A stretch of 64,000 bases of DNA from a virus: IMG/VR virus record IMGVR_UViG_3300042924_003518, positions 1 to 64,000 of that record; one strand, given 5' to 3'. Of the stretch, positions 18,116 to 58,866 are shown piece by piece. The first letter of the stretch is position 1; each line of letters begins with the position of its first letter. The notes under the pieces are model-generated. The model made no database searches. It saw only the letters and a program-made list of their open reading frames with translations, and had not been told where the DNA came from. The position numbers and the translations under genes are program-made.

Positions 18116-18357
18116 TGTATACAGATGTTATGCGTAGAGCCTTTAGATCTCTTGACAATTTTGCTCCTAAAGGATTTCATTTAGAGTTGATAGATAATGA
18201 ACATTTTATTACCGTAAAGGCTAAGGAAGATCTTTTTATGCGTCTTCCAGACGAAGACAAAAGACGTGCTGTAGAATATATGGTAAGGGTTAAGAAGGCC
18301 TTGGAAGACAATGGGGCAATAGTTTTATTAGTTCGTGAAGGTGGCAAGGAACAATGA
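18115..18357 (+). CDS. Hypothetical phage protein
   Basis: 80 aa from ATG 18115, which shares a base with the upstream TGA. Helical and charged with a repeated VRVKKALEDNG segment. It ends 4 nt inside the halogenase start. Unknown function. Confidence 0.55.
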   Translation: MYTDVMRRAFRSLDNFAPKGFHLELIDNEHFITVKAKEDLFMRLPDEDKRRAVEYMVRVKKALEDNGAIVLLVREGGKEQ

Positions 18358-19898
18358 TTAAAAAGGTAGTTGTAGTAGGTGGAGGCACTGCTGGCTGGTT
18401 AACAGCACTCAAAGCCAAAAGATCATACCCAGACTTAGAAGTAACAGTTATAGAATCAAACGATATAGGAATTTTAGGTGCTGGAGAGGGATCTACACCA
18501 TTCTTAACAGATTTTTTAAATCATTTAGAAATTCCATTATCAGAATTAATTTTACACTGTGATGCAACTATCAAAAATGGAATTAAATTTACTAATTGGA
18601 ATAATGATAATGAATTTTTTTATCATGCATTTGCTTTGTCTGATAGGTCTTTAGGTTTTGAGCCAGCATCTGAACCATATCTATCTACTAGTTCTTTTAT
18701 GGTAGCAGGATTATCAAAAAATGATAGTCTTAAAGAAATCAATTTTATGGAAAAAGTTTCAGAAAATAATAAGGTTCCTTTTATTCTTAAAGATACAAAA
18801 CAGTCATTTGGATTTTCCCAAGAAAAAGAAGGCATTAACAAATATAATCAGATAGGTGCTATATCAATTCACTTTAATGCCGTTAAACTTGCAAATAAGT
18901 TAAAAGAAATAGGACTGATTCGTGGAATTAAACTTATTGAAGGAACAATTATTAATGTATCTTTAGATGAAAATAATAATGTAGAAAGTTTAACATTAGA
19001 AAATAATGAAAAGATTTATTGTGATTTTATTTTTGATTGTAGTGGTTTTCATAGATTAATTATAGGAAAAGTCTTTAATGCAAAATGGAAAAGTTATAAA
19101 GACTTTTTGCCAGAAGACTCTGCTGTTCCATTTTTTATTGAAATGACAGAAGATATACCACCGTACACAGAGGCAATAGCAATGAAATATGGTTGGATAT
19201 GGAAGATTCCATTACAGGATAGATTTGGATGCGGGTATGTATATGACTCTTCTTTAATATCAGAAGAAGAAGCAGTAAAAGAAATAGAAGAATTTTTAGG
19301 ATATGAGCCAAAGTATCCAAGAAAAGATAAGGGTGGATTTAGGTTTAGTGCTGGATCTTATGAGGAGTTATGGATAAATAACTGCATCGCAGTAGGTCTT
19401 GCTGCTAACTTTATTGAGCCTTTGGAAGCAACTTCTATCTGGGTAAGTGTTACAGAACTTACAAACATTTTTAATAATCCAGCATGGCTTTTTGATAACT
19501 CCCAGGCAAGAAGAGATGAATTCAATAAAACTATGTTAGAGATGAACGATGACATATCTGACTTTATTTATTTTCATTATATGACTTTAAGAAAAGATAC
19601 TAAGTTCTGGGAAAAATTTTCTTATGAAAATGCTCCAGCAAGACTTAAAGAAAAAATTAATGTATGGCAACATAGATTGCCAGCAAAGTCTGATGTAGGG
19701 AAAGCATGGGCTAGTGCTAGTTGGTTCCAAATTGGAGCGGAACAAAATACAATAAACAAGAGCATAGCAAAAAATTACTTAGAACTATCAAAAGATTATA
19801 AGGCTGGATTAGAGATGTATGACTATTTTGTTAATTATCAGAACTATAAGGTTTCAGAGTGTACTGATCATAGAAAGTTTTTGGACTCACTAAAATGA
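18354..19898 (+). CDS. Flavin-dependent (tryptophan-type) halogenase
   Basis: 514 aa, full family length. FAD-binding VGGGTAGW (8-15), GAGEGSTP (43-50), a candidate catalytic Lys K74 in TIKNGIKF, the diagnostic WxWxIP motif as WIWKIP, and FIEPLEATSIW, which carries the active-site Glu position. Such enzymes use FADH2, oxygen and halide to halogenate tryptophan or other aromatics. The cyanophage enzyme VirX1 shows that phage members can be active. Substrate here is unknown; FADH2 would come from a host reductase. Confidence 0.85.
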   Translation: MIKKVVVVGGGTAGWLTALKAKRSYPDLEVTVIESNDIGILGAGEGSTPFLTDFLNHLEIPLSELILHCDATIKNGIKFTNWNNDNEFFYHAFALSDRSLGFEPASEPYLSTSSFMVAGLSKNDSLKEINFMEKVSENNKVPFILKDTKQSFGFSQEKEGINKYNQIGAISIHFNAVKLANKLKEIGLIRGIKLIEGTIINVSLDENNNVESLTLENNEKIYCDFIFDCSGFHRLIIGKVFNAKWKSYKDFLPEDSAVPFFIEMTEDIPPYTEAIAMKYGWIWKIPLQDRFGCGYVYDSSLISEEEAVKEIEEFLGYEPKYPRKDKGGFRFSAGSYEELWINNCIAVGLAANFIEPLEATSIWVSVTELTNIFNNPAWLFDNSQARRDEFNKTMLEMNDDISDFIYFHYMTLRKDTKFWEKFSYENAPARLKEKINVWQHRLPAKSDVGKAWASASWFQIGAEQNTINKSIAKNYLELSKDYKAGLEMYDYFVNYQNYKVSECTDHRKFLDSLK

Positions 19899-25081: not shown

Positions 25082-27166
25082 CTATCTTACATCAAATCTA
25101 TCAAGCATCATTACCTTATTCCATGCCTGAGCAAAATCATCCATAAACTTTTGTTCTGCATCGTCAGAAGCATAGACTTCTGCAATAGCACGAAGTTCTG
25201 AATTAGATCCGAAAATAAGATCAACACGACTTGCGTTACCTATAAGATCACCACCAACATATCCTTCAAAATTATTGATAGATGTTTGTTTCCAGGTAAT
25301 TTGTCCAGATAACAAACTGATCAAATAACCATTGCTTAGTCTGTTTGTCATTAATGTTCTCATTCCACTCAATAGAACAACCATCTCTACTGGTGTTAGG
25401 TTTAGCATATTTGCCTTTTCAACTAAAAGAACTTCTGAAGGAGTTATAACTCCATCTTTTAAATAATTCTTAAAGCCATCTGCAATCGGTTCAAGAACAC
25501 TAAATGATTCCACATCTGTTTGTTCTTGTGTTGCATCTGTTCTTCCAGGTGTAAATGGTACTACAACCTTTTCTTCAGATACCTTTTCGATAGCAGCGCA
25601 TCCAGCAAGAACAATTAAGTCTGCTAATGATGCTGAGTATTCCTTCTGCAATGTTTCTAAATAATTAATTACAGTGGAGATAACTTCTTTATTGTTGGAG
25701 TCCCAACTTATTTGAGGTTCCAAGCGAATACGTGCACCATTTGCTCCACCACGCTTATCTGTTTTACGGAAAGTAGATGCAGAAGACCACGCAGTATATA
25801 CGAAATAATATAGTGGTATACCAGAAGACTTAATAGCCTTCTTGATAGACTCTACATCAATATTCATATTAACATTGCTTGGTACTGGATCTTGCCAAAT
25901 TAGTTCTTCTGTAGGAACTTCTTTGCCAAGATAACGAGCAACAGGACCCATATCTCTGTGTGTTAGTTTAAACCAAGCACGAGCAAATTGATCTGAGAAA
26001 TAGTCAAAGTCTTCTAAGAATCTTCTTGAAATCTTTTCGTATTCTGGATCAAACTTGAGAGCCAAATCTGCTGTTGTCATCACTGGAGCATGAAACTTTC
26101 CTTCAACATGTGCATCTGGTACTAAATTAACAGCAGATTCATCTGTAGGAATCCATTGTGTCGCACCAGCAGGAGACTTTACCTGCTTCCAATCATACTT
26201 AAATAGAATCTTTAAGTAGGAGTTATCCCACTTAGTTGGTGTAGGAGTCCATGCACCTTCAATACCACTTGTAATGGTATCTTCTGCATTACCCTTACCA
26301 AATGAATTCTTCCAGCCAAGGCCCTGCTCTTCAATAGATGCGCCTTCTGGTTCTGGTCCAACATTCTTGGGATCTCCAGCACCATGTGCTTTACCGAATG
26401 CATGTCCACCAGCAATAAGAGCAACGGTCTCTTCATCATTCATTGCCATTCTTGCGAATGTCTCACGGATATCTCGTGCAGATAACAATGGATCTGGATT
26501 ACCGTTTGGTCCTTCAGGGTTGACATAAATCAAACCCATTTGTACAGCAGCAAGAGGATTCTCTAACTCACGATCACCGCTATAACGGTTGTCTGCAAGC
26601 CATTCCTTTTCGCTACCCCAATATGTATCGTCTGCTTCCCAAACATCTACACGACCTCCACCAAAACCGAAAGTTTTAAAGCCCATGTTTTCAAGAGCAA
26701 CATTACCAGCAAGAATCATGAGGTCTGCCCATGAAATCTTCTTTCCATATTTTTGTTTGATAGGCCATAAAAGTCTACGAGCCTTATCTAAATTACCATT
26801 ATCTGGCCATGAGTTTTGTGGGGCAAATCTATGTAGACCTTCTCCAGCACCACCACGACCATCAGTTGTTCTATATGTTCCTGCGCTATGCCATGCCATG
26901 CGAATGAATAGTGGTCCATAGTTGCCGTAATCAGCAGGCCACCAATCTTGCGAGGTAGTTAGAAGTGTATCAATATCCTTCTTGACTGCATCAAGATCTA
27001 AACTATTAAACTCTTCAGCATAATCAAAGTCTTCTCCCATTGGATCTGACTTAGATGAATTCTTTCTTAAAGGAGACAAGTCTAATTGGTTTGGCCACCA
27101 ATCTTTATTATATGTTCCTTCATTATTTAAACTGTTACCCGTAAATGGGCACTTTGCTTCTGACAT
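25082..27166 (-). CDS. katG: Catalase-peroxidase
   Basis: 694 aa, full two-domain KatG that decomposes hydrogen peroxide. All catalytic residues are present with a constant offset of 15 from the M. tuberculosis enzyme: distal R89, W92, H93 ([11 protein letters not shown]), the cross-linked triad W92-Y214-M240, and the proximal haem ligand H255 (GGHAFGK). D122 is also in place. It lies between tRNA-Glu and tRNA-Thr genes, with its own TATAAT and an AAGGAA site. No frameshift. Composition is AT-rich like the phage, arguing against recent contamination. Confidence 0.96.
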
Positions 27167-32832: not shown

Positions 32833-33630
32833 ATGAAAATTACAGAACTTCCCATGGGCATACTTTATATAGAAGATGCCCTTCCTGAATCAGAATACTT
32901 TATACAGCAAATAGAGAAATATGATCTTGACGAATTAACACACTCAGTCATACCGCCGTGGGAAGACTGGAGAGATAGTCGTCCAGTAAAAGGCAGTGGC
33001 TCAGAAAATGACTGGAAAATGCAGATAGATACATATTCAAAAGGCAAACAAAAATTATTTGATTGGGATAGATCTGCCAGTAACTATAATTTATTTTGGC
33101 CAAGACCAGAATATGTGTTTGAAGATTATGCACACAAAACTGTAGAAAAAACTATTGATCTTATAGATAAGCCGTACAAAGAAATTATAAAAATTTGGTC
33201 TGAAAAAACTGGCAATAAAGATTTAGAGTATATATCTAAAAACTATTTTCTCAGAAAGTATAAAGTAGGAGGTAAAATAGGTCCACATGTTGACAAAAAT
33301 GTAGACAATCCATTAAATACAATGGATTGGTCAGTTTTATTTTATCTCAATGATAACTATTCTGGGGGAGAGATACTGTTCCCAGATTTAGATATTAAAA
33401 TAAAACCATCTGCTGGAAGTGCGTTAATATTTCCTTGTACAACAGTGCATGTTGCTGAAGAAGTTACTGATGGTGAAAAATATTATATTTTTATGGTCAT
33501 ACATTCTGAATTTGGTTATTCTTCGGCGTTGGGTGAAGAATATCATCTAATGAATGAGGCAATATTAGAGCACAAAGGTGTAACAGATCATATATTGCTT
33601 GATATTAAAGCACAAAGATATAAAAAATAA
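32833..33630 (+). CDS. Fe(II)/2-oxoglutarate oxygenase, copy 2
   Basis: 265 aa. IGPHVDKN gives the HxD pair, WSVLFYLNDNYSGGEILF is the family strand, and ALIFPCTTVHVAEEV carries the distal His. The 2OG-binding Arg position reads GEKYYIF, so a Lys replaces Arg. Leaderless. Confidence 0.8.
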   Translation: MKITELPMGILYIEDALPESEYFIQQIEKYDLDELTHSVIPPWEDWRDSRPVKGSGSENDWKMQIDTYSKGKQKLFDWDRSASNYNLFWPRPEYVFEDYAHKTVEKTIDLIDKPYKEIIKIWSEKTGNKDLEYISKNYFLRKYKVGGKIGPHVDKNVDNPLNTMDWSVLFYLNDNYSGGEILFPDLDIKIKPSAGSALIFPCTTVHVAEEVTDGEKYYIFMVIHSEFGYSSALGEEYHLMNEAILEHKGVTDHILLDIKAQRYKK

Positions 33631-33664
33631 TATCATCTTTCAAGTTCGGCGGAAAATAGAATAA

Positions 33665-33700
33665 CAAACCCTCTTATGCTCTAAACGAGCAATAGGGGTT
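33665..33700. other. Imperfect inverted repeat
   Basis: AACCC ... GGGTT with inner GCTC/GAGC, between two oxygenase genes. Not followed by Ts. Role unknown. Confidence 0.5.
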
Positions 33701-33723
33701 AATATCTCTAATATGGCCTATGT

Positions 33724-33729
33724 TATAAT
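33724..33729 (+). promoter_or_regulatory. -10 element for oxygenase copy 3
   Basis: TATAAT followed by a 23-nt gap to ATG 33753. Confidence 0.5.
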
Positions 33730-33752
33730 TAAACTCTACAGATAGGGTTTGT

Positions 33753-34271
33753 ATGTTCATATATGATGATAATTTCCTAAGCGACCAGGAAATAGATGAT
33801 ATAGATACTATATTCAATTCTGTTTATAAATGGCAATATTGTAATATTTTAGATAAGGTCGATGATGAAGGTAACATCAAATACTTTACCTCAGACCATG
33901 AAGAAAATACACCAGAATATAAGGCTACAAGGTTTATCCTAAATAAAATGCTAAACAAATACCAAATTGGCGAGGGTATAGTGAGTAGAGTCAAATTCAA
34001 CATGACACCCCCTAATACAAAGACTATAGTATCAACCCCACATACAGACATGTCCGCATATCACCTGGTTTTTCTATATTACGTTAATGATGCATACGGA
34101 GACACCTTGATCTATGATGGTTTGGAGATAGTTCACTCAATATCACCCAAACGTGGTGCTGCTATCTTGTTTGATGGTTCTAAACATTCATGGTGTACAC
34201 CACATATGGGACCAATGAGACAGGTTATTAACGTTAATTATATACCCCGCTCAAAAATAACATCTTATTAA
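33753..34271 (+). CDS. Fe(II)/2-oxoglutarate oxygenase, copy 3
   Basis: 172 aa. TPHTDMSAYHLVFLYYVND has HxD, GDTLIYDG the GD-strand, and AILFDGSKHSWCTP the distal His, with R in PMRQVINVNYI for 2OG. Smaller than copies 1 and 2, like minimal phage prolyl-hydroxylase folds. Confidence 0.8.
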   Translation: MFIYDDNFLSDQEIDDIDTIFNSVYKWQYCNILDKVDDEGNIKYFTSDHEENTPEYKATRFILNKMLNKYQIGEGIVSRVKFNMTPPNTKTIVSTPHTDMSAYHLVFLYYVNDAYGDTLIYDGLEIVHSISPKRGAAILFDGSKHSWCTPHMGPMRQVINVNYIPRSKITSY

Positions 34272-34391
34272 ATATACCGTCGCAAATAATGGTTTTATAA
34301 TTACCCAATGCATTTACATAGATTTAGTACCCATGCAGATGACACCAAGATAATCTATTTTTGTACTGTTTGTGGATGGGAAAAGACAGAG

Positions 34392-34444
34392 TTATCCACA
34401 GGGTTATCATCGGTTTGACATTAGTTATCCACAAGTTATCCACA
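34392..34444 (+). promoter_or_regulatory. Three DnaA boxes (TTATCCACA)
   Basis: Perfect matches at 34392-34400, 34425-34433 and 34436-34444, spaced 33 and 11 nt, that is, whole helical turns. Confidence 0.75.
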
Positions 34445-34542
34445 GATAAATCTTACTGATTATATTATTGGATAGGGTTAAAGTGGAGTGAAGTGGAGGA
34501 TAGTGGTGAATGGAACGTTTTTATAGATGGCGTTCGTAATCC

Positions 34543-34593
34543 CAAACCTCACAAACCCTCACACCCAATATCTTCAAACCTCACAAACCCTCA
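34543..34593 (+). repeat. Direct repeat, 19 nt x2
   Basis: CAAACCTCACAAACCCTCA at 34543-34561 and 34575-34593, 32 nt apart. Confidence 0.9.
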
Positions 34594-34774
34594 TACCATA
34601 TATGCCCGATATTGTCAAACCATCATATAAGGTTTGGGCATTATACATCCAAAACCATGGTTTGTCAATAGGGTTCGTAATCTATTTTGGATGAAAATTG
34701 CCAAATATCCAGGAAAAATTCCAATAAGTTCGTAATACTTTTTAAAATGTTTTAAAACCAGGAAATATGGTTTG

Positions 34775-34999
34775 TTATTCCTTTATAGGGGGATTATAGA
34801 GAGGTTCGTAATCTTTTTTAACTTCTCCCGCCGTTTTGTAGAAGGCAGGGATGAATGGTTTGAGAGGTGCCTTTGCAATTGAGTATAACATACCAGTCAA
34901 AACCGTCATGTCTTTTGTAAAAGAGTCCCAGTCAGATTGCTGATCATGTCTGTGTTGACTTTTGTTTTGATACATCTTTGAAAAGTGACGGGGACTCAT
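34775..34999 (-). CDS. Small hypothetical protein inside origin-like region, leaderless
   Basis: 74 aa (MSPRHFSKMYQNKSQHRHDQ...). TATAAT lies exactly 6 nt before the ATG on this strand (35006-35011), supporting it as real. Basic/His-rich N-terminus could bind DNA. Unknown function. Confidence 0.6.
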   Translation of the reverse strand: MSPRHFSKMYQNKSQHRHDQQSDWDSFTKDMTVLTGMLYSIAKAPLKPFIPAFYKTAGEVKKDYEPLYNPPIKE

Positions 35000-35328
35000 A
35001 TAATTATTATACTCCCGTTTATTCCCGCCAAACTTTCTGGAGGGGGGAAGAAATCGGCGTTCGTAATGTCTTTAAAAAACGGCGGGGTATATAAAAGACA
35101 TCGTAATACCCCTAGTACTATACAAACAATCATACACTATGGCTTGAAGGTTTGACAAACCAAAAATATTATGCTATATGGTTTGGGGAAAATATGGTTT
35201 GGATCGTAATCTTTCTGGGAAAAATTTACAATGGTTCGTAATACATTCGTAAAATGGTTTTATGGTTTGTGGTTTGATATGGTTTCTAGATATCTACCTA
35301 GGCGGCCCCGCAAGGGGGACTTAGATTT
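35000..35328. other. Candidate replication origin, right half
   Basis: No gene seen. Contains five TTCGTAAT-type iterons, repeated ATGGTTTG words (35180-35280), the palindrome GGTTTGACAAACC (35149-35161), and a CCTAGG site (35297) with a CCCC/GGGG hairpin just after the next minus-strand gene. Confidence 0.55.
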
Positions 35329-44429: not shown

Positions 44430-44439
44430 CGACACGCCG
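44430..44439 (-). promoter_or_regulatory. CGGCGTGTCG motif copy 2
   Basis: Followed after 2 nt by TTGAAAATGTCAGT, so it abuts the -35 region of gene 44213-44368. Confidence 0.55.
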
Positions 44440-44480
44440 ATAAATCTGTGGGGAAATTCACATTGTAACGTAATTCACAT

Positions 44481-44510
44481 TGTGGATAAACCTGTGGAAA
44501 ACCCCCTAGG
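44481..44510. promoter_or_regulatory. DnaA box plus CCTAGG
   Basis: TGTGGATAA (44481-44489, reverse DnaA box) followed by CCCCCTAGG (CCTAGG 44505-44510). Similar pair at 46106-46123. Confidence 0.55.
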
Positions 44511-44527
44511 CGATTTTAGTTGAAAGT

Positions 44528-44626
44528 TCAAGCATTTTTAGCAGCGCACACAAAACACTTTAGATCTGCGATAAAAATTCTACCGCAGATTTCGCATTTA
44601 CTAAATTTAGTTTTCTTTCGTGGCAT
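44528..44626 (-). CDS. Zinc-ribbon microprotein
   Basis: 32 aa: CEIC then CFVC, one zinc ribbon with a PRKKTKFSK basic start. Overlaps the next small gene by 20 nt. Confidence 0.5.
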   Translation of the reverse strand: MPRKKTKFSKCEICGRIFIADLKCFVCAAKNA

Positions 44627-44693
44627 TTCTAATTATAAAATAAATTGAAAGCACTAAACCAATTTGAACAAGTGTAGTTAGAATTCTCATCAT
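44607..44693 (-). CDS. Membrane microprotein (28 aa)
   Basis: MMRILTTLVQIGLVLSIYFI, then basic tail. Starts overlapping the previous TGA (ATGATGA). Confidence 0.42.
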   Translation of the reverse strand: MMRILTTLVQIGLVLSIYFIIRNATKEN

Positions 44694-44884
44694 ACTGGAA
44701 TTAGTCCTATCTCATCAACACCGCAAGCAGTTTCAAATTTTGCTTTGTCGAACATTTCGTTTTTAGTTGAGAAATAAACTGCGAAACTTTCCACGAGGTC
44801 TTCATAGACCTGCGGGTGAATTTCATCTTTGACATCATTTAGAATTGAGGCGATAGCCTTGAAGTGTGATTTAGTTAGTGACAT
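44690..44884 (-). CDS. Conserved small phage protein
   Basis: 64 aa helical: LTKSHFKAIASILNDVK ... FDKAKFETACG, a family often seen in phages. Unknown function. Confidence 0.62.
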   Translation of the reverse strand: MSLTKSHFKAIASILNDVKDEIHPQVYEDLVESFAVYFSTKNEMFDKAKFETACGVDEIGLIPV

Positions 44885-45144
44885 TATTTATTTTCCTCAT
44901 CTAATAGAATGAAAGCAGTTGAGCCACCTTCGTTGATTTTTTCTAATTCATTTACTAATTCTGTATGAGTTAGAATTGAAGCATCACCTAACAAGTCTGT
45001 AATTGCTTGAAGATTCATTTGAGTAAATACGCCTGCGGGAAGCATAGCAATTTGATTTGCCATTGGTGAATTATTATATACTCTTGAAATAAATTTTACA
45101 CCTTGAGCGGTAAATGGGTAATCTGTATAAGTTGTTGTAGTCAT
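44884..45144 (-). CDS. Conserved small phage protein
   Basis: 86 aa. YPFTAQGVKFISRVYNNS, MNLQAITDLLGDASI. Stop shares a base with the next start. Unnamed family. Confidence 0.58.
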   Translation of the reverse strand: MTTTTYTDYPFTAQGVKFISRVYNNSPMANQIAMLPAGVFTQMNLQAITDLLGDASILTHTELVNELEKINEGGSTAFILLDEENK

Positions 45145-45257
45145 TAGTTATTGCCTTTCTTAGTTGTTGATACAATTTTAGCGATTTTCTCTGAGTTTGT
45201 CAATTGTTGCGCTTTGCGCTGTGCTTCAATATAAGCCTTGAATTCATCAAGTTTCAT
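45144..45257 (-). CDS. Very small basic protein
   Basis: 37 aa (MKLDEFKAYIEAQRKAQQLT...), overlaps both neighbours by 1 nt, so translation is coupled. Confidence 0.5.
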   Translation of the reverse strand: MKLDEFKAYIEAQRKAQQLTNSEKIAKIVSTTKKGNN

Positions 45258-45469
45258 TAGTCTGCCACCTTTACGGCGACAGTAGCCCATTCGTCATTGA
45301 AACGACCTGTTGGGCGGTAGCGAATAGCGAAAGCCTCATAGCCTTCTGATAAATAAATATCCTCACGCTTTTCTGCGTGGTTGATAATTCCGCCATTGAA
45401 ACGACGGCGTAGAGAACGAGGTGCGTAGTAAGTATCTACCAGCAAATCTTCAATTGAATAAGTTTTCAT
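45257..45469 (-). CDS. Conserved phage protein
   Basis: 70 aa: YYAPRSLRRRFNGGIINHAEKRE then EGYEAFAIRYRPTG and WATVAVKVAD, a recurrent phage family. AAAGAAAGGT site. Unknown function. Confidence 0.68.
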   Translation of the reverse strand: MKTYSIEDLLVDTYYAPRSLRRRFNGGIINHAEKREDIYLSEGYEAFAIRYRPTGRFNDEWATVAVKVAD

Positions 45470-45526
45470 AGTTTTTACCTTTCTTTATGTATCCTATTAT
45501 TTCATATTTTGGCGTAGAAATCAAAT

Positions 45527-45536
45527 CGACACGCCG
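45527..45536 (-). promoter_or_regulatory. CGGCGTGTCG motif copy 3
   Basis: 2 nt before TTTGATT in the promoter of gene 45257-45469. Confidence 0.55.
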
Positions 45537-45550
45537 TTAGTTTTTGTGAT

Positions 45551-45697
45551 TTATCTCTCAGCCTGTTTTAGTAGGTAGGCATTATTGAGAGGGCGTGGAT
45601 TATTAGAGAATAAACTCTCAACCACGGCTTTATCCTTTATCGCTTGGATTTTGCGTTGCTCTTGTTGAGCCTTTAGTATTCTATCAAATGTAGTCAT
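45551..45697 (-). CDS. Small basic protein
   Basis: 48 aa (MTTFDRILKAQQEQRKIQAI...). Promoter TTGACA-17-AATAAT and AAAGAAAGGT. Unknown function. Confidence 0.55.
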   Translation of the reverse strand: MTTFDRILKAQQEQRKIQAIKDKAVVESLFSNNPRPLNNAYLLKQAER

Positions 45698-45752
45698 TTT
45701 TCGACCTTTCTTTATAATTTTATTATTTCATACTTTTGTAAAAATGTCAATT

Positions 45753-45762
45753 CGACACGCCG
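45753..45762 (-). promoter_or_regulatory. CGGCGTGTCG motif copy 4
   Basis: CGGCGTGTCGAATTGACA: the motif ends 2 nt before a perfect -35 of gene 45551-45697. Confidence 0.65.
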
Positions 45763-45782
45763 TAGCGTGGGTGTGATTTACC

Positions 45783-45980
45783 TCACACAGGGAGAATATC
45801 TGTTCCGTAGTATTCTACGGCTTCAACAATGTTCATCATGCCTTTATAGTCACGGCAAGAGTAGCAGATAGCGTTCCAACCATCTGTTAGTGATGAGCAA
45901 AATACGCAGATTTTATCTGTTAAGCAGAAATCCATTTCAATTAACAAATCTACTACTTCATTTCTATTTAGTGTAGTCAT
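45783..45980 (-). CDS. Small zinc protein
   Basis: 65 aa with CVFC and CYSC knuckles. Promoter region has TTTGTCAGTCCCCCCTGATAGG. Unknown function. Confidence 0.58.
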   Translation of the reverse strand: MTTLNRNEVVDLLIEMDFCLTDKICVFCSSLTDGWNAICYSCRDYKGMMNIVEAVEYYGTDILPV

Positions 45981-46250
45981 TTTCTGACCTACCTTTCTTT
46001 TTGTTATACTGGTATCCTATCAGGGGGGACTGACAAATTAGCCTGTTTTTCGGGCGTGTCGGGAAACTATTTTTGTGACCTTAGACACATAACTTATACA
46101 CAGCCTGTGGATAACCCCCTAGGTTGCCTAGGAAAATCGGACATTTAGGACATGTGATACAGAACACAAAATATTTTTTATTTTATCGGCGTGTCGTGTT
46201 GACTTTGTCAGTGTTCTATGTTATTATTCTCCTATAAAGAAAGGTTAGTT
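45981..46250. promoter_or_regulatory. Divergent control region
   Basis: 270 nt between minus and plus blocks. Holds TGTCAGT elements facing both ways (46029 minus, 46206 plus), GGGCGTGTCG (46052) and CGGCGTGTCG (46187-46196), DnaA boxes TTATACACA (46094-46102) and TGTGGATAA (46106-46114), two CCTAGG sites (46118, 46127), and the promoter TTGACT-17-TATTAT for the plus genes. Confidence 0.65.
46187..46196 (+). promoter_or_regulatory. CGGCGTGTCG motif copy 6
   Basis: CGGCGTGTCG then 2 nt, then TTGACT; the only plus-strand copy next to a -35, the same distance as on the minus strand. Confidence 0.6.
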
Positions 46251-57465: not shown

Positions 57466-58866
57466 ATGCTAAGTTCATTATGGCCGTTTTTAGCAAAGGG
57501 AATGGTAAAGGTCCCGCAACTTGTAGGTCTTTTAAAGAACGTAGCAATTACCACAATAACAAACTCAGGGCTTAAGAATGTTGGTGACTCTTCTATAGTT
57601 ACTTCAGATTCACAACTTGATAATAAGGTTGCTTCTCAAGTTCCAGTAGCAGACACATTAGTTGATTATGATACTGATGTAACCTTTGTTTATTATACTT
57701 ATGTTGCCCCTCCATTCTTCCCACCTACATTCCAGTCACCGTTCTTCCCACCTACATTCCAGTCACCGTTCTTCCCACCTACATTCCAGTCACCGTTCTT
57801 CCCACCTACATTCCAGTCACCGTTCTTCCCACCTACATTCCAGTCACCATTCTTCCCACCAACATTTACACCGTTCTTCCCTCCAACGTTCCAGCAAGTA
57901 TTAAATTATTACGGATACTGTGATTTAGCCAATAACCCTGTTGGTCCTTTCTCAACAACATTGTCCTGTGCTGAAGCATATACTATTCAGGAAAACGCAA
58001 ATGGATACCCACCAATTGGATGGGTTTGCGGACCAACAGCACAAAATGGAACTCCAGAATGCACCATTACTCCATTCTTCCCACCATTCTTCCCTCCATT
58101 CTTCCCACCATTCTTTAGTTCAGGAACAACAACATACTACTTCTGCTGCGATGATAATACTGTTGGATCTGTTACTGCTGCAAACTCAACAGAGGCAACT
58201 AATGCTGCTGAGACTTTCTGTTTCACAATAAGTGCATCATTGACTGGCTCTGTTACAACAACTCCGATAACATCTTGCACCACTCCTCCGTTCTTCCCAC
58301 CTACATTTACACCGTTCTTCCCACCAACTTTCCAGTCACCATTCTTCCCACCAACGTTCCAACAGACTACAACAAGTTACTACGGATACTGTGATTTCAA
58401 TAACAATCCAAACGGTCCTTTCTCAACAACATCGTCCTGTGCTGATGCATATGCTGCTCAAGAAAACGCAAACGGATATCCTCCAATTGGATGGGTCTGT
58501 GGTCCTACACAAGCATCAGGAACTCCTACATGTACGGTTAATCCATTCTTCCCTCCGAACTTCCAGGCGCCATTCTTCCCACCAACATTCCAGGCGCCAT
58601 TCTTCCCACCAACATTCCAGGCGCCATTCTTCCCACCAACATTCCAGGCGCCATTCTTCCCACCAACGTTCCAGAGTCCTTTCTTCCCACCAACGTTTAG
58701 TGTTACACCATTCTTCCCACCAACGTTCCAGAGTCCTTTCTTCCCACCAACATTTACAAGTACTTGTACACTAGAATGCGGAAGCCAAGCAGGCGGTGGG
58801 GCAGGATATGACTGTCCACCTTCACTGTACTGTACCTCTACTACATGTGGTAACTGTACATTCTAA
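57466..58866 (+). CDS. PASTA-domain protein with FFPP repeats
   Basis: 466 aa. Residues 14-80 form a PASTA-like domain (VPQLVGLLKNVAITTI ... VASQVPVADTLVD). Then arrays of PFFPPTFQ (about 21 FFPP cores) at 83-143 and beyond, interrupted by two homologous Cys domains (YYGYCD ... GWVCGP) and a third Cys region, ending with a CxxC-rich tail. PASTA domains bind muropeptides, so it may contact the actinobacterial cell wall. Very unusual repeat. Confidence 0.72.
   Translation: MLSSLWPFLAKGMVKVPQLVGLLKNVAITTITNSGLKNVGDSSIVTSDSQLDNKVASQVPVADTLVDYDTDVTFVYYTYVAPPFFPPTFQSPFFPPTFQSPFFPPTFQSPFFPPTFQSPFFPPTFQSPFFPPTFTPFFPPTFQQVLNYYGYCDLANNPVGPFSTTLSCAEAYTIQENANGYPPIGWVCGPTAQNGTPECTITPFFPPFFPPFFPPFFSSGTTTYYFCCDDNTVGSVTAANSTEATNAAETFCFTISASLTGSVTTTPITSCTTPPFFPPTFTPFFPPTFQSPFFPPTFQQTTTSYYGYCDFNNNPNGPFSTTSSCADAYAAQENANGYPPIGWVCGPTQASGTPTCTVNPFFPPNFQAPFFPPTFQAPFFPPTFQAPFFPPTFQAPFFPPTFQSPFFPPTFSVTPFFPPTFQSPFFPPTFTSTCTLECGSQAGGGAGYDCPPSLYCTSTTCGNCTF
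57712..57894 (+). repeat. 27-nt tandem repeat coding PFFPPTFQS
   Basis: Nearly perfect repeats of 27 nt (unit CATTCTTCCCACCTACATTC-like) encoding SPFFPPTFQ. Confidence 0.85.
58543..58757 (+). repeat. Second 27-nt repeat array coding PFFPPTFQA
   Basis: CGCCATTCTTCCCACCAACA-like units encoding APFFPPTFQ about eight times. Confidence 0.8.

Follow-up and report, generated by a model that had tools for sequence, protein, structure and literature searches.

The analysed window, a 64,000-nt stretch (positions 1–64,000 of the 85,937-b virus record IMGVR_UViG_3300042924_003518 in IMG/VR), contains an interval almost free of coding sequence, which lies at the border of a minus-strand block and between two gene blocks that both point into it (Table 1). 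No ORF of at least 80 aa is found between 34271 and 35329, and at a 50-aa threshold the same interval has three, of 55, 74 and 56 aa. It holds three perfect DnaA boxes (TTATCCACA), all on the forward strand and spaced 33 and 11 nt apart, which the initial annotation had read, together with the iterons, repeats and AT-rich sequence around them, as a candidate replication origin. These features are present as described. The window has six matches to TTATCCACA, where shuffled sequences average 0.85 and reach 3 at most, and the boxes at 34425 and 34436 are separated by a 2-bp gap, in keeping with the box pair at most 3 bp apart that is one mark of a basal unwinding system (BUS). The AT-rich stretch adjoining the boxes is real but moderate (34431–34470 is 75% AT and ranks at the 95.5th instability percentile of the window). 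A 19-nt direct repeat is also found, and words of the GGTTTG/CAAACC type number 16 in 34385–35310 against 0.79 expected. The palindromes fare less well: the inverted repeats do overlap as palindromes, but their complementarity, at 75–86%, is not impressive. Two features had been overlooked, namely an array of AGTGG-type repeats and the position of the site at the probable edge of a terminal repeat.

Table 1 Features of the candidate element and its surroundings, in window coordinates
Feature	Position	Strand	Basis or remark
Interval almost without coding, between two converging gene blocks	34272–35328		ORF scan
DnaA box 1, perfect TTATCCACA	34392–34400	+	Motif match
DnaA box 2, perfect TTATCCACA	34425–34433	+	11 nt ahead of box 3
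DnaA box 3, perfect TTATCCACA	34436–34444	+	Motif match; kept in relatives
AT-rich stretch with TTACTGAT (34453–34460) and a run of N-T-N triplets (DnaA-trio-like)	34445–34475	+	Candidate unwinding element
MraZ-operator-like array AGTGGAG-N3-AGTGGAG-N3-AGTGG, 10-nt period	34482–34506	+	Exact match
Putative physical end of the genome, at the left terminal-repeat edge (predicted cut near 34512/34513)	34503–34513	+	By-eye alignment to recorded Streptomyces phage edges
Terminus-proximal TTCGTAAT	34533–34540	+	Repeat counts, distance to array
19-nt direct repeat CAAACCTCACAAACCCTCA	34543–34561 and 34575–34593	+	Repeat search
Further eight TCGTAA repeats, each on the forward strand (8-mer positions 34674, 34729, 34805, 35060, 35100, 35203, 35235, 35246)	34674–35253	+	

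Two further DnaA-like sites lie about 10 and 11.7 kb past the core, at 44481–44489 and 46095–46114, in a zone of diverging genes; the second is an inverted pair (TTATACACAGCCTGTGGATAA). Within 44430–46190, several gene starts are preceded by GACACGCCG or its complement, a word that is promoter- or operator-like by eye.

Conservation of the box region in related phages

The core (34392–34540) recurs in at least 120 IMG/VR contigs, as found by a scan for TTATCCACANATANATNTTACTGAT, which occurs 125 times in the loci collected, 93 of them non-redundant. Phage origins of this form had been called rare; with the core in so many contigs, that rarity is not supported. The repeats, whose absence from close relatives had been named as grounds for abandoning the origin, do recur among these relatives. 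A second box (≤1 mismatch) precedes the last box by 12 nt in 63 relatives, by 11 nt in 25 and by 21 nt in 3, and is missing from 2, leaving 88/93 with a pair at 11–12 nt spacing. A BUS would also show at least three trios within 16 bp. At least five N-T-N triplets are found in 80/93, a count in which the first four triplets are fixed by the search pattern and the stretch is AT-rich; past the part so fixed, T-runs average 2.19 in the trio frame, compared with 0.94 and 0.81. The triplets would read 3'-NAN-5' on the other strand, which is the strand placement of DnaA-trios. This arrangement shares with the basal unwinding system of B. subtilis-type oriC, as set out in PMC8287927, the tandem boxes 2–3 bp apart, the short spacer and a trio-like triplet run, and differs from it in that the phage has no detected DnaA and in that TTACTGAT stays at ten sites without boxes.

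A 2-kb query against named phages gave Escherichia phage P483 as its sole match, over the box region, where 58 nt match at 85% (E 6e-7) with TTACTGAT and the array outside the match; box clusters therefore occur in other phages. With a 176-nt query, the array was covered by none of the best 20 of 53 matching records. A host oriC was considered as the source of the core and set aside on finding TTATCCACANATANATNTTACTGAT in 0/198 genomes from the order to which G049, an Actinomycetota MAG, belongs (perhaps not the host order), and a perfect tandem box pair in 0/11 small genomes; this exclusion is weak.

The nine TCGTAA iterons reported in 34385–35310 were counted again, all in one direction, and TCGTAAT occurs there eight times forward and never in reverse (Markov mean 0.13, maximum 3 in 2000). 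TTCGTAAT is found 14 times in the window against 2.0 expected, with 6 of the 14 in this region. Near the core in the 93 non-redundant relatives, TCGTAAT occurs downstream in 371 forward and 0 reverse copies in 81.6 kb, and upstream in 63 forward and 3 reverse copies in 78.2 kb. The repeats that correspond to 34533–35253 of the window are strictly one-directional across relatives. Since they would lie beyond the predicted terminus, inside the terminal repeat, the TCGTAA repeats need not belong to the origin.

An array of the mraZ-operator type

MraZ, a regulator very widespread among bacteria, is known from the division gene cluster. An MraZ operator is taken here to comprise at least three direct AGTGG-type repeats at a 10-nt period upstream of mraZ or the dcw cluster. 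AGTGGAGNNNAGTGGAGNNNAGTGG matches the window exactly at 34482–34506, whereas 100 shuffles gave no match even with three mismatches, and the array has the three repeats at that period. It does not have the genomic position, as PF02381 was found in 0/48 phage records and the flanking genes converge.

A scan of bacterial genomes with the array pattern gave at least 119 loci. Among the bacterial matches listed, 92 of 119 array loci are followed within 400 nt by the beginning of an ORF with what we take to be the MraZ start pattern (D.KGR), and all four downstream ORFs tested belong to PF02381. The 27 listed loci that lack a mraZ-like start comprise 10 low-complexity matches, 6 at the edge of a stretch and 11 unexplained cases. 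MraZ is present in 55/60 genomes from the class of G049. Thirty mraZ leaders of this class were examined and the start was located in 29; at least two GTGG repeats at a 10-nt period lie upstream of 27 of these starts (Markov mean 0.6, maximum 3 of 29) and at least three upstream of 17 (Markov mean 0.01, maximum 1). The exact two-repeat word is found in 13/118 genomes of the class, and 12 of 17 such loci examined have a mraZ-like start downstream of it; the exact three-repeat word is found in 6/100 genomes of one bacterial family; the exact words being less common, hosts often use variants. Two streamlined one-contig genomes (1.34 and 1.38 Mb), both of which begin with an apparent dnaA by eye, carry AGTGGGGAATTGAGCG and AGTGGGGGATTAAGCG in the mraZ leader, and 33/130 phage cores share with these two leaders a tail (AGTGG, 2–8 nt, [AG]AGCG), a pattern that was picked after seeing the data and has a shuffled rate of 0.003.

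The phage array has the same three AGTGG repeats, 10-nt period and leader consensus as the mraZ operators of bacterial dcw clusters, and differs from them in that it is not upstream of mraZ and is tied to a predicted phage terminus. Very probably it is an operator of the MraZ type, to which MraZ, described in PMC8475190 as a repressor of its own gene cluster, would bind. A phage-encoded MraZ or DnaA was rejected as the binder, given that model searches found PF02381 in 0/48 and the DnaA C-terminal domain in 0/32 phage records, many of which are fragments.

Spacing of boxes, array and CGTAAT

Phage array sites were pooled from the core, array-only and array-plus-box scans, a pooling that favours boxes, and low-complexity (AGTGG)n matches were removed before the sites were counted. 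At least 120 distinct sites were found; among those listed, 88 have TTACTGAT and a box, 10 have TTACTGAT without a box, 6 have a box only and 16 have neither, although in two of these 16 (L304 and L341) a box lies downstream. In the 85 loci that the array-only scan added, the sites number 36 with TTACTGAT and a box, 10 with TTACTGAT only, 5 with a box only and 16 with neither, 12 low-complexity matches having been dropped. TTACTGAT, which is fixed by the core search pattern, is also present at 46/67 sites from the array-only scan.

Of the 93 relatives, 56 have three array repeats (≤1 mismatch, 10-nt period), 23 have two, 6 have one and 8 have none; with at most one repeat in 14/93 boxed relatives, the parts are separable. 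The box-to-array distance is 44–46 nt at 94/133 array sites, low-complexity sites included. The ten box-less sites with TTACTGAT lack any box (≤1 mismatch) in the 90 nt upstream, and their loci contain no perfect one; the phage contigs with TTACTGAT and the array but no perfect DnaA box are L292, L295, L299, L301, L329, L344, L348, L363, L367 and L370. Kept at these ten sites, TTACTGAT may serve another protein.

CGTAAT follows the array within 160 nt at 107 of the 112 phage sites with enough sequence. Its distance from the array start is 51–53 nt at 86/92 sites of the TTACTGAT class and 111–113 nt at 11/20 sites of a second class, which is without TTACTGAT. In the six second-class loci examined, minus-strand ORFs follow the array in all six and plus-strand ORFs stand just before it in four, and their proteins resemble, by eye, those past the site in L009.

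The phage and the predicted edge of its terminal repeat

Around the site, 10.5 kb are shared at 100% identity with another IMG/VR contig, which is 117,492 b long. The 85,937-b record spans the joined ends of that contig (99.96% over 75,501 b and 100% over 10,401 b, some 35 b separating the two matches), and this overlap may indicate a circular map of about 117.5 kb. The phage encodes DnaB_C, DnaG-type, DnaE, RecA and WhiB proteins, and its TerL is 50–57% identical to those of Streptomyces phages over most of its length (Yaboi about 56%). WhiB, present in 30/32 related phage records, points to actinobacterial hosts, a use of whiB also made in PMC6802176. As one part of the combined-element reading set out below, which we hold at even confidence, the phage would be a freshwater actinophage, a distant relative of the Stanwilliamsviridae, and streamlined small-genome actinobacteria are its presumed hosts; it is not filed in that family, the comparison being one of TerL and gene order.

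Four Streptomyces phages of that family (Yaboi, Karimac, Wofford and Braelyn), whose TerL is related to that of the phage, have recorded repeats of 10.8–12.6 kb with GTAAT at the edge. Like the window, they carry boxes shortly before the repeat and, within it, TCGTAA repeats; Yaboi likewise has a minus-strand block past the edge. Unlike the window, whose own terminal repeat is predicted, they have inverted rather than tandem boxes, no TTACTGAT or array at the edge, and Streptomyces hosts. Relative to the repeat edge the boxes stand at -93 and -69 in Yaboi (a 12,432-b direct repeat, second copy starting at 118819), -81/-69 in Wofford, -93/-71 in Braelyn and -93/-69 in Karimac, such that 4/5 Boydwoodruffvirinae examined have DnaA boxes 69–93 nt before the edge. 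Coruscant has no DnaA box near its repeat; four Loccivirinae have repeats of 0.8–1.8 kb with boxes 5.3–6.4 kb upstream of the edge; and in the Rhodococcus phages a single box was found 13.9 kb upstream in Weasels2, against none in the examined stretch of Francesca. GTAAT stands at the recorded edge in 8/11 named phages, lies about 24 nt earlier in Blueeyedbeauty and is lacking in two Rhodococcus phages. Neither TTACTGAT nor two array repeats occur from 200 nt before to 60 nt after the edge in any of the 11.

At the predicted cut, the window reads gatagtggtgaatg and then GAACG, and Karimac reads gatagtgtgtaatg and then GTGCA; the two agree in 11/14 letters up to the cut, and each has TCGTAA at position 22 of the repeat. 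The site is likely to be where a long direct terminal repeat has its left edge, a certainty lowered a little because the window, unlike several relatives (for example L064 and L037), has no literal GTAAT at the predicted cut. The yardstick is partly experimental, since the ends of cluster BE1 were set from read starts and a twofold rise in coverage (PMC5764925) and those of Coruscant with PhageTerm (PMC7650747); the edge in the window is a prediction. Four of 119 listed contigs end 5–20 nt past the predicted cut, a weak pattern noticed post hoc. Contig ends at the exact cut were also sought, and rejected: a repeat-start scan gave 12 stretches, none starting at its own stretch edge. Long terminal repeats are likewise found in T5 and SPO1 (10,139 and 13,185 bp, as cited in PMC5764925).

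Origin, packaging site or both

Recruitment of host DnaA, as the initial annotation proposed, is the most likely role of the boxes, and we consider it probable that the site is a replication origin at which DnaA would bind and initiate. The pair at 11 or 12 nt in 88/93 relatives, the AT-rich stretch next to it, the phage's own DnaB-type helicase, DnaG-type primase and DnaE, and a DnaA C-terminal domain in 0/32 records are consistent with this role. What did not stand, besides the rarity, is the GC skew inflection expected at the site: cumulative GC skew peaks near 24–26 kb of the window, about 10 kb away. GC skew was rejected as an origin marker, as it follows gene direction.

The same element might serve packaging only, with TTACTGAT, the AGTGGAG repeats and the terminus forming a terminase recognition region in which the repeats are small-subunit sites, MraZ-like by convergence, and the boxes are accessory. 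The locked distance between array and terminus would fit such a region, as would the ten TTACTGAT sites without boxes and the overlap of the third repeat with gatagtggtgaatg, which is akin to the Karimac terminus. We nevertheless regard it as unlikely, given that the second class places its array at another distance from CGTAAT, with a separate terminus-like word between in the loci examined, that two array repeats occur at the recorded repeat edge in 0/11 named phages, and that the array equals bacterial mraZ operators across three repeats. A decoy or regulatory site, which would titrate host DnaA and MraZ or act as an MraZ-controlled promoter without any replication start, appears less likely again. 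No adjacent gene needs a promoter where both gene blocks converge on the interval, a single three-repeat copy would be a weak sponge, and the distance to the terminus element is conserved; against these points stand the autorepression by MraZ reported in PMC8475190 and the post hoc tail shared with the mraZ leaders of the two small-genome actinobacteria.

We rate lowest the possibility that the true origin lies elsewhere, for example in the divergent zone at 44.4–46.2 kb with its DnaA-like sites, or at the skew maximum around 25 kb. The skew tracks gene orientation, and the window has one perfect box only at each of 44481 and 46106. The inverted pair 11.7 kb downstream does resemble that of Wofford, and G002, the one relative in which the conservation of the 44481 and 46106 sites was examined, carries tandem boxes at the position equivalent to 44481.

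The reading that we prefer, and to which we give an even chance, is that 34390–34540 (150 bp) combines a DnaA-dependent origin, an MraZ operator and a packaging terminus in one cis-element. Of these parts the operator is the most secure, followed by the terminal-repeat edge and then by the origin. The boxes, the array, the repeats, their conservation, the fixed spacings and the lack of a DnaA or MraZ model in the searched phage records are direct observations; initiation, binding by DnaA and MraZ, where the cut falls, which bacteria are the hosts and all causal steps that follow are what we infer from them. Host DnaA would bind the box pair and open the adjoining AT-rich stretch, where the phage DnaB-type helicase, DnaG-type primase and DnaE polymerase could load. 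MraZ on the array may help or gate initiation, or mark the terminus, and terminase would cut about 68 nt past the last box. For MraZ, gating initiation and marking the cut are both possible, and a decoy role is less likely. Against the combined element stand the GC skew peak about 10 kb off, the ten box-less sites with TTACTGAT and the array, the named Streptomyces phages without an array, the Loccivirinae boxes 5.3–6.4 kb from the edge and the DnaA-like sites at 44481 and 46106.

A broader and doubtful extension is that a large group of freshwater actinophages wired replication and packaging to the host division regulator, having captured a mraZ operator whose occupancy gates initiation or cutting. 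T5 and SPO1 are not known to have a DnaA or MraZ site at the repeat edge. An origin at the repeat edge, if there is one, would offer an answer to how phages duplicate very long terminal repeats, here one of 10–12 kb, before packaging. A conserved MraZ-type array at the joint origin and terminus of a phage would place MraZ in a setting new for it and, if the reading is true, tie the DNA metabolism of the phage directly to the division programme of its host. In metagenomes, the element serves as a marker of a large actinophage group. Among the papers listed in literature searches there was no earlier report of a DnaA/MraZ/terminus element, and DnaA does not occur in the main texts of PMC5764925 and PMC7650747.

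Other proteins of the phage

Several further proteins were observed. Just before the site (32833–34271) lie 2OG-Fe(II) oxygenase-like proteins, one clear and one under the Pfam cut-off, and many more are seen by eye at 68–77 kb of G000 (L130/L131). A tryptophan halogenase family protein is encoded at 18354–19898 (PF04820, E 6e-105). Beside a cluster of seven tRNAs, a 694-aa peroxidase-family protein (25082–27166) has two PF00141 stretches and looks like a catalase-peroxidase. Proteins built of PFFPPTFQ- or FFPPFFP-type repeats are found at 57466–58866 of the window and at 1946–3037 of L130.
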